Source: Hymenobacter jeollabukensis (lineage in GTDB: Bacteria; Bacteroidota; Bacteroidia; Cytophagales; Hymenobacteraceae). From it: a DNA stretch of 64,000 bases. The stretch lies in contig NZ_VAJM01000009.1 of NCBI RefSeq assembly GCF_005771675.1, forward strand, positions 1 through 64,000, given 5' to 3'. The notes beneath the pieces are model-generated. The model saw only the letters and a list, made by a program, of their open reading frames with translations. It was not told where the DNA came from and ran no database searches. The stretch's first letter is position 1. Every line of letters begins with the position of its first letter. Shown here in pieces: positions 28,354-63,457 of this stretch. The translations under genes and the position numbers were made by a program.

Positions 28354-28387
28354 ACCCCGTTCTTTGCCATCCGCAATTGCCGTAGAA

Positions 28388-28553
28388 AGGTGCCGGGCTC
28401 CCGAGTTCGGCTGAAAAAGGAACCGTGTGTGATTCACGGGCTGACGCGCAACTGTAAGTAACACTACCCCGGGCAGCCCCCGCAGGCCATTGCTTCGTGC
28501 CCCGAAGCGAGAAGGCCGGCCGCCCCGTTACGAGCCAGGAGACTTGCCTACCT
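28388..28553 (+). ncRNA. Cobalamin riboswitch (class I type)
   Basis: The conserved blocks occur in the right order: AGGTGCC (closing stem with TGCCTACCT at the 3' end), GGCTGAAAAAGGAA, TGTGTGATTCACGGGCTGACG, GCGCAACTGTAAG, GGCCATTGCTTC, GAGAAGGCC, and the B12 box GAGCCAGGAGACTTGCC. The AGGT (28388-28391) and ACCT (28550-28553) pair as P1. Unlike the second riboswitch at 63246-63443, no cobalamin uptake or synthesis gene follows; the next gene is an acyl-CoA thioesterase, with a terminator just before its start. Confidence 0.85.
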
Positions 28554-28681
28554 ACGACGTGACGCGCGCTTCCGCGACCTGAAGCTGCCGTCGGGCCAAT
28601 TGATGCCGCACTGCCGCTGCCGGGGCCACGCTGCCCGGGCCGGGGCGGGCGCGTCCGTATGGGTCCGGGGCGGAGTAGGGC

Positions 28682-47736: not shown

Positions 47737-47928
47737 GGAAGAGCTTACGGAAAGAGTACTGCCGGAATATACCCGTGCCACCGCCCCCGCGTTGCCGGGG
47801 CCTGCTCGGGGGCAAATCGGGGCGGGGCATACAACCATTCCGGGCCGGTTTGTCACATCATCATGCATTGCGGGGCCGCTAGGCCCCGGCTATTTTTGCC
47901 CGCCTCAAACCCCTTCATTCCAAGCTAC

Positions 47929-48339
47929 ATGCGTGCTCAGCTTTTCCTCCGCTTCTTTCCCGGCCTGTTGTTGTTGTTACTGCCGCTGCTGCCCCAGCGT
48001 GGTCTGGCGCAGGTGTCTAAAGCCGGCTCCTACCAGTTCATGCAGATGACCACCATTGAATCCGTCGTGGCCGGCGGGCTGGGCCGCTCGCGCATCACCT
48101 TCACGCCGGAATTCAAGGGCACCAAGGAGGCGCAGATGGAAAACCTCTTCAGCCTCACCGGTATCAACATGCAGAACGTGCGCGCCAACGAGGAAACCAT
48201 CATTCGCACCCTGCAGGACGTGCAGAATGAGGGCTGGGACCTGGTGCAGGTCACCCCGCTCACGCAGACCCTGCAGAGCGGCGGCTCCACCGGCCAGGGC
48301 ATTTTCATGACGCGCTACCTGTTTCGCAAAGCCAAATAA
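47929..48339 (+). CDS. Small secreted protein, DUF4177-like
   Basis: A 136-residue protein from ATG 47929 with a signal peptide (MRAQLFLRFFPGLLLLLLPLL...GLAQ). The mature part of about 110 residues has two strands (YQFMQMTTIESV and ITFTPEF) and ends with the phrase EGWDLVQVTP, found in the DUF4177 family. An intrinsic stem-loop follows. Confidence 0.7.
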   Translation: MRAQLFLRFFPGLLLLLLPLLPQRGLAQVSKAGSYQFMQMTTIESVVAGGLGRSRITFTPEFKGTKEAQMENLFSLTGINMQNVRANEETIIRTLQDVQNEGWDLVQVTPLTQTLQSGGSTGQGIFMTRYLFRKAK

Positions 48340-48365
48340 CCCCGGCACTCCGTAGCCCCGAAAGC

Positions 48366-48400
48366 AAAGCGCCCCGCAGACCATATCTGCGGGGCGCTTT
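48366..48400. terminator. Bidirectional terminator after the DUF4177-like gene
   Basis: A 15-bp perfect stem AAAGCGCCCCGCAGA / TCTGCGGGGCGCTTT with a 5-nt loop, facing the convergent tRNA-like gene. Confidence 0.8.
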
Positions 48401-48455: not shown

Positions 48456-48569
48456 CTGTAGAAGAAGGATTCGAACCTCCACGGAGTAGTTAGCCAGAGT
48501 CCCCCCGGTTTTTCCCAAACCTCCACCCTCGAGACAGGAGGGCATGTCTGCCAGTTTCATCATTCTACA
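48456..48569 (-). tRNA. tRNA-like gene with very long variable arm, anticodon loop GTC (identity uncertain)
   Basis: Read on the minus strand: acceptor TGTAGAA/TTCTACA (7 bp; an eighth C-G pair is possible), D-arm ATG...CAT with AAACTGGCAGA loop like leucine tRNAs, anticodon stem CCCTC/GAGGG with the 7-nt loop CTGTCTC, then a variable region of about 45 nt, T-stem GGAGG with loop TTCGAAT and CCTTC, discriminator G. The variable region has its own GGTTT/AAACC hairpin and a GGAG/CTCC outer stem. Total 114 nt, against about 90 for ordinary type II tRNAs. The anticodon would be GTC (Asp codon), but the frame fits Leu/Ser-type structure and position 37 is T. CCA is not encoded. A pseudogene or a non-canonical tRNA are both possible. 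Confidence 0.6.
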
Positions 48570-48645
48570 GGATGAGCGGGTCGGCTACCCGTACGTGGCC
48601 GTAAGCATACGGACCACCTGCCGCAATACCAAATGTTTTTTTTGG

Positions 48646-48743: not shown

Positions 48744-49775
48744 TCACTGGCGCTGCGAAGAAGCGCGCACCAGCAGCTCGGGCGTCAGCACTACGGGCGG
48801 CAGCGGCGCGCTGCCAGGGGCATCGAGCAGGCGCAGCAGCTGCTGCACGGCCGTGACGCCCATCAGGTGGCAGCGCTGATCCACCGAGCTGATGGTGGGC
48901 TCGGTGAGGGCGGTGAAGGCCTCGTTGCTGAAGCCCACCACGGCCACGTCGGCGGGAATGCGTAGGCCGTGGGCCTTGAGCACCTGCATGGCGCCCACGG
49001 CCGCCAGGTCGTTGGACGAAAACACCGCGTCGGGCGGCTCCGGCAGCTGCAGCAGCTGCCGCATGCCCTGGCTACCGGTTTCCTGGTTGAGGTCGGCCAC
49101 GAACACCAGCTCCTCGCGCACGGGCAGGCCGTGGTCCCGCAGCGCGTCGAGGTAGCCCTGGTGGCGGTTGCGGTGGATGTTCAGGTGCAGCGGGCCCGAG
49201 AAGTGCGCGATGCGGCGGTAGCCCTGCCCAGCCAGGTGGGCCACGGCCGCGTAGGCGCCAGCGTGGTCGTCGAGCACCACGGCGCTTGTGTAGGGGCCGG
49301 CCATGTCCTCCACGATGCGGTCGAAGAACACCAGCGGCACGCCGGCGCTGCGCACGGCGTCGAAGTGGCTGAAATCCTGGGTGGTGCTGGCCAGCGACAC
49401 CAGAATGCCTTCCACCTGCGCGTTCAGCAGCAGCTCGATGTTGCGCTGCTCCTGCCGCACGTCCTCGTTCGACTGGCAGATCATCACGTTGTGCCCCGTG
49501 CGGCTGGCTTCGAGGGCAATGCCGTTGACGACTTCGGGGAAGAAGTGCCCGGTGATGTAGGGCACCAGCACCCCGATGGTGTTGCTGCGCCCGCGGCGCA
49601 GGGCCGCCGCCAGCTGGTTGGGCTGAAAGTGCAGCTGATCGGCCAGCTCGCGCACCCGCTGCTTGGTGGCCTCGCTCACCTGCGGGTGCCCCGTCAGGGC
49701 CCTTGACACGGTGGAGGGCGAGAGGTTCAGGGCCCGGGCCAGGTCGGTGATGGAAGTCCGGTGAGGTGCCTTCAT
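48744..49775 (-). CDS. LacI family transcriptional regulator
   Basis: A 343-residue repressor starting MKAPHRTSITDLARALNLS at 49775. The N-terminal helix-turn-helix is SITDLARALNLSPSTVSRALTGHPQVSEATKQRV with hinge helix LHFQPNQLAAALRRG. The periplasmic-binding-protein-like domain then has NTIGVLVPYITGHFFPEVVNGI, VEGILVSLASTT, VFFDRIVEDM, AVFSSNDLAAVGAMQVL and VAVVGFSNEAFTALTEPTISSVDQ, typical of sugar-responsive members. No sugar gene lies nearby, so the ligand is unknown. A direct repeat of GCGAGTAATAAAC/GCGAGTAGTAAAC upstream might be an operator. Confidence 0.93.
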   Translation of the reverse strand: MKAPHRTSITDLARALNLSPSTVSRALTGHPQVSEATKQRVRELADQLHFQPNQLAAALRRGRSNTIGVLVPYITGHFFPEVVNGIALEASRTGHNVMICQSNEDVRQEQRNIELLLNAQVEGILVSLASTTQDFSHFDAVRSAGVPLVFFDRIVEDMAGPYTSAVVLDDHAGAYAAVAHLAGQGYRRIAHFSGPLHLNIHRNRHQGYLDALRDHGLPVREELVFVADLNQETGSQGMRQLLQLPEPPDAVFSSNDLAAVGAMQVLKAHGLRIPADVAVVGFSNEAFTALTEPTISSVDQRCHLMGVTAVQQLLRLLDAPGSAPLPPVVLTPELLVRASSQRQ

Positions 49776-51707: not shown

Positions 51708-51714
51708 CTGAATG

Positions 51715-51787
51715 AGCGGGAAACGAGGCTCGAACTCGCGACCCTCAGCTTGGGAAGCTGATGCTCTACCAACTGAGCTACTCCCGC
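51715..51787 (-). tRNA. tRNA-Gly (anticodon CCC)
   Basis: Minus strand: acceptor GCGGGAG/TTCCCGC, D-arm GCTC AGTTGGTA GAGC, anticodon stem TCAGC/GCTGA with loop TTCCCAA, so anticodon CCC reading GGG codons, T-arm GCGAG TTCGAGC CTCGT, discriminator T as in bacterial glycine tRNAs. Length 73 without CCA, which is not encoded. Confidence 0.95.
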
Positions 51788-63079: not shown

Positions 63080-63245
63080 AATTTTCGTAGCCGAAAAATT
63101 CGGTTCAGAACCAGGCGCGCGGCCGTGTAGGCTACTTACCGGGCTGAGGCAGAATCAGGGAAGCCGGGCCCGCCGCCAGATGACGACACCGCCCAAAATG
63201 ATTCATTCTCCGCCCGTCCTCCGCAGGCGCCGAACACTAAGATGC

Positions 63246-63443
63246 GCACGGGCAGGTCTCCTGACTTGCTTCGCGCCGGGCGGCCTTCCCATTCCTCCGC
63301 CGGTCAGGTCGACCGGCATCAGCGGAACAGTGGCGAGGTGGGCCCGGCGCATGATGGAAGCTTACAGTTGCGGGGACAGCTGCCGAATTTCACGGCATTC
63401 CCTTTTCAGCCGCGCCCCCCGATTGGGGTCTGGCCACCCATGC
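63246..63443 (-). ncRNA. Cobalamin riboswitch of the btuB operon
   Basis: On the minus strand the conserved blocks are GCATGGG (5' closing stem), CGGCTGAAAAGGGAA, GCCGTGAAATTCGGCAGCTG, TCCCCGCAACTGTAAG, GCCACTG, GGGAAGGC, and the B12 box AAGTCAGGAGACCTGCC, closing with CCCGTGC. A TATCTTTG promoter box lies 7 bases upstream. It represses btuB when B12 is plentiful. Confidence 0.93.
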
Positions 63444-63449
63444 GTGGGG

Positions 63450-63457
63450 CAAAGATA
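63450..63457 (-). promoter_or_regulatory. -7 promoter box TATCTTTG of the btuB leader
   Basis: Exact TAnnTTTG on the minus strand, directly ahead of the riboswitch. Confidence 0.65.

Follow-up and report, generated by a model that had tools for sequence, protein, structure and literature searches.

A tRNA-shaped gene on the minus strand

The window, a 64,000-nt stretch of the Hymenobacter jeollabukensis genome (contig NZ_VAJM01000009.1, positions 1 to 64,000), carries a 114-nt cloverleaf read on the minus strand from 48569 to 48456, with its 5' end at 48569 and the discriminator base G73 at 48456. An earlier note on this DNA had proposed a tRNA-like gene at 48456-48569 and left the strand unstated; the cloverleaf is complete on the minus strand, and direct reading bears out the four stems, the T-loop UUCGAAU, the Leu-type D-arm, the 45-nt variable region and the anticodon GUC with U37 in the loop CUGUCUC. 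The RNA reads UGUAGAA-UG-AUG-AAACUGGCAGA-CAU-G from its 5' end through the D arm and continues CCCUC-CUGUCUC-GAGGG-(45-nt variable region)-GGAGG-UUCGAAU-CCUUC-UUCUACA-G, then C. The parts of the gene and its surroundings are:

48456..48569, minus strand: whole tRNA-like RNA gene, 114 nt (direct reading; 121 bits with model R2; family covariation)
48563..48569, minus strand: acceptor stem, 5' strand UGUAGAA, whose partner is UUCUACA at 48457-48463
48457..48463, minus strand: acceptor stem, 3' strand UUCUACA, followed by G73 and then C74 at 48455
48544..48560, minus strand: D-arm with a 3-bp stem AUG/CAU and Leu-type loop AAACUGGCAGA with G18 G19; the stem covaries (A-U/U-A/G-C)
48526..48542, minus strand: anticodon arm CCCUC-CUGUCUC-GAGGG; compensatory changes in its stem pairs in the order-wide set
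48531-48537, minus strand: anticodon loop, with anticodon GUC at 48533-48535, U37 at 48532 and C38 at 48531
48481..48525, minus strand: 45-nt variable region with V stem GGAG/CUCC, internal loop GGGAAAAA / CUAAC and distal helix CCGG/CUGG; both helices covary
48464..48480, minus strand: T-arm GGAGG-UUCGAAU-CCUUC
48602..48609, minus strand: probable -7 promoter element TATGCTTA (TAnnTTTG type, 6 of 8), with the spacing and position of the family-wide promoter; conserved with genome G002
48630..48632, minus strand: probable -33 promoter element TTG, as in the family-wide promoter; conserved with G002
48365..48400, no strand assigned: GC-rich hairpin common to the gene and the convergent open reading frame; hairpin also in G002
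48744..49775, minus strand: upstream LacI-family regulator, on the same strand as the RNA (context only)
47863..48339, plus strand: small convergent open reading frame without a Pfam match (context only)

The probable promoter of the window copy has the form TTG-N20-TATGCTTA and ends 32 nt upstream of the RNA. Its -7 element is weak, matching 6 of 8 positions, and the G002 counterpart, TATGCTTG, matches 7 of 8. The GC-rich hairpin at 48365..48400 is a possible bidirectional terminator; its T run is weak, and a terminator scan did not call it.

ARAGORN made no call on the window copy, which also gave no match to the Rfam tRNA family RF00005 even at E<=10, and the long form of the RNA matched none of the known Rfam families above the gathering score. 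Folding of the single window sequence was uninformative (z = 0.20, stability not unusual). The case for this gene therefore rests on comparison. Annotation has overlooked the gene because its variable arm leads tRNA finders to reject it. A search of the open-access literature, a scope that takes in few subscription papers and no preprints, found no earlier description, and the long tRNA-shaped RNAs apparently form a large, undescribed family. The sole tRNA called in the window is an ordinary tRNA-Gly(CCC) at 51714-51787 (minus strand), and the window also carries two cobalamin riboswitches, at 28371-28565 (plus strand, 91.9 bits) and 63234-63456 (minus strand, 99.3 bits).

Extent, structure and conservation of the RNA family

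BLASTN searches within the window's family, whose genera include Hymenobacter and Pontibacter, gave matches in 108 of 204 genomes. With a first covariance model, the sampled order yielded members in almost every one of its families (1e-18 to 1e-30), and a second model, built from 72 order-wide sequences, added members in other orders of the class and in one family of another class. Complete members score 72-134 bits and ordinary Leu/Ser tRNAs at most 61 bits; two matches at or below 61 bits were inspected, and both were ordinary tRNA-Leu. Named carriers are Hymenobacter, Pontibacter, Algoriphagus, Cyclobacterium, Dyadobacter, Spirosoma, Fulvivirga, Flammeovirga, Phaeodactylibacter and a Chitinophagaceae MAG, and many genomes hold tandem copies 150-200 nt apart. 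The named bacterial loci and the viral loci came from a pattern search in which UCUC and most of the anticodon stem were set, positions 33 and 34 could vary, and positions 73 and 74 and the other stems were not imposed. Because the pattern fixed UCUC, conservation of this motif was judged on the BLAST- and model-found sets only; loop positions 35-38 are UCUC in 91 of the 96 BLAST-found homologues that were aligned.

The pattern also occurs on 81 IMG/VR contigs, which are predicted to be viral, with phage genes checked on some of them only. Nearly all of the 80 copies tested score at least 72 bits, and one copy is cut to 47 nt by the end of its contig. Many viral copies lie inside tRNA arrays of up to about 25 tRNAs, some of which include a tmRNA and several a separate canonical tRNA-Asp. 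Neighboring genes on the contigs examined include terminase, RNA ligase, DNA ligase and GroEL. BLASTN against plasmids and known sequenced or named phages gave no match to the RNA.

Comparison of these members strongly supports the cloverleaf. Across 47 non-redundant sequences, 99.2% of cells pair, and covariation is 0.236 compared to 0.104 in shuffles, none of 500 shuffles reaching the observed value. The 72 order-wide sequences have standard pairs in 99.6% of paired cells and covary in each of the five helices. Compensatory changes in related genomes, which the earlier note had proposed looking for, are present in 11 of 24 pairs of the order-wide set, the anticodon stem included. RNAalifold independently adds a distal helix to the variable arm, with many double changes. 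The conserved variable arm consists of GGAG/CUCC, an internal loop ANAAA / CUAAC and this distal covarying helix (CCGG/CUGG in the window), within a variable region that is 45 nt long in the window and 39-130 nt across the family; a GGUUU/AAACC hairpin once suggested for the same region has no conservation in relatives. Extra sequence also occurs elsewhere in the cloverleaf: phage members at loci L345, L349, L352, L313 and L335 have an additional hairpin ahead of GGCAGA in the D-loop, which makes this a second arm that tolerates insertions.

The acceptor and T stems are divided 7/5 throughout the family. Acceptor pairs covary, with U1-A72, G2-C71 and U3-A70 nearly invariant. All complete members have G73 (broken ones excepted), and G73 is followed by C74 in all 296 unique members; C74 likewise follows the discriminator in 324 of 324 ordinary tRNAs.

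The RNA of the window genome (G000) is identical to that of its nearest relative, G002, at 113 of 114 positions (99.1%), while the flanking intergenic DNA of the two genomes is only 47-78% identical. TAnnTTTG lies upstream of 143 of the 239 bacterial members (12.7 in shuffles), and TTG precedes it by 19-21 nt, an arrangement known for promoters of Bacteroidota; a terminator-like hairpin is found in 133 of 236 members (4-14 in shuffles). The comparative evidence establishes the window locus, at the level of sequence, as a conserved, strongly selected tRNA-type RNA gene with promoter signals. An earlier suspicion of decay consequently fails for the window copy, given its near-identity to G002 between diverged flanks and its membership in a covarying family. 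The suspicion does hold for the syntenic copy (L004 / L062) of G006, a genome of the same genus, which is degenerate in most stems and scores 18.5 bits. The LacI-family neighbor of that decayed copy is still 92% identical in protein. Broken copies also occur in G077, G052 and G069, and the RNA is absent from five further congeners; decay in G006 and these absences indicate that the RNA is dispensable in some lineages.

Anticodon loop, identity elements and a short version

In overall anatomy the RNA resembles canonical class II tRNAs (tRNA-Leu and tRNA-Ser, RF00005), with which it shares the 7-bp acceptor stem, 3-bp D stem, Leu-type D-loop with G18G19, 5-bp anticodon and T stems, 7-nt anticodon loop, V stem, a T-loop of the TTCRANY consensus and the C74 end; model R1 also matches ordinary tRNA-Leu at 50-60 bits. 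It differs from them in its long variable region with an internal loop (the upper limit in canonical tRNAs is about 24 nt), in a pyrimidine at position 37 (U in the window) where a purine is expected, in not requiring U33 across the family, and in the failure of RF00005 and ARAGORN to detect its long form. The discriminator separates it from tRNA-Leu, which has A73.

Position 37 is U in 236 of the 239 unique bacterial members and C in the other three, and position 38 is C in all 239. Position 33 is U in 205, G in 25 and C in 9, so that U33 is lost in 34 of 239 (14%); the window copy keeps it. Among 315 ordinary tRNAs from these sequences, U33 is present in 313 and a purine at 37 in 305, and most of the U37 exceptions among them are short members of the present family. 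The first anticodon position drifts in bacteria (G 178, A 32, C 28, U 1) and is G in all 57 phage members.

The loop and acceptor end suggest aspartate. In these genomes tRNA-Asp has the loop CUGUCAC with G2-C71, G73 and C38, and the loop of the window RNA differs from it at position 37 only. A73 and, in most cases, C2-G71 mark tRNA-Glu, A38 marks tRNA-Ser, and ordinary tRNA-Leu always has A73; among ordinary tRNAs of these genomes and phages, only tRNA-Asp combines G73, G2-C71, C38 and U35C36. The family keeps G73, G2-C71, U35, C36 and C38 even as changes occur at position 34, in the anticodon stem and in the variable arm. The bacterial Asp identity set comprises G73, G10, G34, U35, C36 and C38, with G2-C71 as a minor element (PMC9976931), and the determinants G73, U35, C36 and C38 of aspartyl-tRNA synthetase (AspRS) are all present. 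Against recognition by AspRS, 60 of 239 bacterial members, chiefly Hymenobacteraceae, have A or C in place of the major determinant G34; the family does not conserve G10 (A10 in the window), and the 1-72 pair is U1-A72, not G-C. Further differences from tRNA-Asp(GUC) are U37, the Leu-type D-arm and the long variable arm. Serine identity fits poorly: its determinants are G73, C72, C11-G24, G30-C40 and a large variable arm (PMC9976931), whereas the window RNA has A72, U11-A24 and C30-G40, and a short version of the RNA lacks the variable arm. As far as sequence can tell, the family is one that keeps the Asp set except for G10 and, in Hymenobacteraceae, G34, with a decoding-supporting base altered.

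The short version, 76 nt long, occurs in ten Hymenobacter genomes without the long RNA (L390-L399, at about 1501-1577). Its variable arm is gone and its anticodon stem is entirely CUAGC/GCUAG, and it retains the loop CUAUCUC, the D-loop, U1-A72, G2-C71, G73 and C74. Since the loop and acceptor end are what it keeps, selection acts there and not on the variable arm as such. ARAGORN labels it tRNA-Asp(AUC), and it may be misannotated as a decoding tRNA. In the locus examined (L390) it adjoins a DNA polymerase IV-like gene. Mimicry of an anti-Shine-Dalgarno sequence by CCUCCU in the anticodon stem was considered and rejected, because the short version replaces the stem and keeps the loop only.

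Possible functions

We infer that the RNA is probably processed as a tRNA, recognized by AspRS and used outside normal decoding. The fuller statement, a functional noncoding RNA derived from a class II (Leu-like) tRNA that undergoes tRNA-type maturation, is AspRS-recognized and acts outside normal decoding, stands for us at a little below an even chance. CCA would be added to the transcript, which would adopt an L-shaped fold, and AspRS would recognize it by G73, by G2-C71 and by the loop bases (G34)U35C36...C38. Normal decoding would not take place, since the purine expected beside the anticodon has given way to U37 and the family can do without U33. On this view the RNA would be reserved for a job outside ordinary elongation, as an aspartyl-tRNA or as an RNA that binds AspRS, and the variable arm may be an extra docking domain that can be lost. 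An amino-acid-responsive regulator of the Lrp/AsnC type, which lies divergently beside the RNA in roughly half of the loci, would control it. Phages would carry it alongside replacement tRNAs of their own for times of attack on host tRNAs, when they either need it or have to protect it. Against this reading, no AspRS paralogue linked to the RNA was found in the genus, each congener having one AspRS gene over the cut-off whether or not it has the RNA. The Lrp gene is likewise present in 8 of 8 congeners with or without the RNA, so the link to Lrp may be mere synteny, and the window copy, preceded by the LacI-family gene, has no Lrp gene beside it. We propose more tentatively a dedicated non-decoding aspartyl-tRNA, shared by host chromosomes and large phages, with a role beyond standard translation and a separate docking domain in its variable arm; it could act as an amino-acid donor, as a synthetase or stress sensor, or as a decoy in tRNA immunity. 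Both proposals made earlier from the window alone, a non-canonical tRNA outside normal decoding and a tRNA-like regulatory RNA, survive side by side.

The second of these would have the RNA regulate by base-pairing or protein binding, for example by titrating AspRS or an Lrp protein or by pairing through the UCUC loop, with the tRNA fold serving stability and processing only. We regard this as unlikely, at something over one chance in five. In its favor are a promoter belonging to the RNA itself, in many cases a terminator-like hairpin, and a structured variable arm with a conserved internal loop. A divergent Lrp/AsnC regulator lies about 150 nt upstream in 61 of 119 named loci, often with suf genes next (Pfam). 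Lrp was rejected as an obligate partner, since it occurs without the RNA. A single associated protein was likewise rejected, as neighbors vary between lineages. An attC-like GCCTAAC was dropped because no matching partner repeat was seen. A purely regulatory role sits poorly with the dispensability of the variable arm in one clade, and the strict conservation of the acceptor pairs, G73 and C74 suggests that the 3' end is used.

Similarly doubtful, at about one chance in five, is a role in counter-defence or surveillance, in which the RNA would divert anticodon-loop nucleases, or other immunity aimed at tRNAs, as a decoy or sacrificial substrate: its Asp-like U37 loop would bind such enzymes at no cost in needed tRNAs, and phages would carry it for the same purpose. 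The RNA lies inside large phage tRNA arrays, two such contigs also encode a phage RNA ligase, and the loop is conserved independently of the anticodon stem. Phage tRNAs, according to PMC10264068 and PMC11555353, evade tRNA-targeting defences, among other ways by anticodon-loop changes. The chromosomal copies, however, are ancient and promoter-driven and often occupy a conserved site, their neighbors show no defence islands, and no linked nuclease gene was found. Conservation of the acceptor end argues against a simple decoy, which would leave G73 and G2-C71, distant from the loop, unexplained. The RNA resembles phage replacement tRNAs (PMC10264068, PMC11555353) in lying within phage arrays with near-complete tRNA sets, and differs in having no usual isotype and in being chromosomal in bacteria as well.

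A translating tRNA of unusual anatomy, which would decode GAC/GAU (GAG where position 34 is C) or promote missense or frameshift events, a role possible for nematode nev-tRNAs and allo-tRNAs as well, is improbable. The cloverleaf is complete, with the tertiary bases of the D-loop and T-loop; phage copies sit in tRNA arrays; and 86% of bacterial members have U33. Decoding is opposed by the family-wide pyrimidine at 37, by loss of U33 in the remaining 14%, by the G/A/C variation at 34 and by separate canonical tRNA-Asp genes, which the window genome also has. Like this family, allo-tRNAs are class II-like with non-Leu/Ser anticodons, GUC among the common ones (PMC7609411), but they divide the acceptor and T stems 8/4 or 9/3, and neither this nor the 8/5 division also seen in the tRNA-Sec/allo-tRNA group matches the 7/5 found here. 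PMC4300185 describes nev-tRNAs as having a Leu-like variable arm and an anticodon for another amino acid; they are eukaryotic and leucylated, in contrast to the G73 and far longer variable region of the family. A decaying pseudogene or chance cloverleaf, despite the few broken relatives (G006, G077, G052, G069) and the silence of ARAGORN and Rfam on the window copy, is refuted for that copy by covariation, purifying selection, promoters and hundreds of intact copies, and we give it almost no weight.

The family adds a conserved, so far unseen RNA gene to a major bacterial phylum and its large phages, and the comparison supplies covariance-based criteria for annotating it. It provides a test case for whether bacteria keep tRNAs for non-decoding jobs, bears on why phages pack such RNAs into tRNA arrays, and offers ready-made mutants in its natural variants (A, C or G at 34, G33, a lost variable arm, a replaced anticodon stem).

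The phage contigs hold other structured RNAs. On a predicted 207-kb phage contig that carries the RNA, a GOLLD RNA (L345:8203-8609, 284.6 bits) adjoins the tRNA array. A second, different tRNA-like family of phages keeps its acceptor/D part, AGTCAGGTGGCGRAATTGGTAGACG, and its T part, ACAGGTTCGAATCCTGTCCTGACTA, constant around a hypervariable middle, which measures 20-117 nt and lacks a fixed anticodon. Its loci include L322:5130-8251 (five copies), L380, L327, L379, L330, L369 and L410 onward; its 5' pattern occurs in at least 120 viral contigs, and in the 69 distinct RNAs found on 65 contigs every middle is different.
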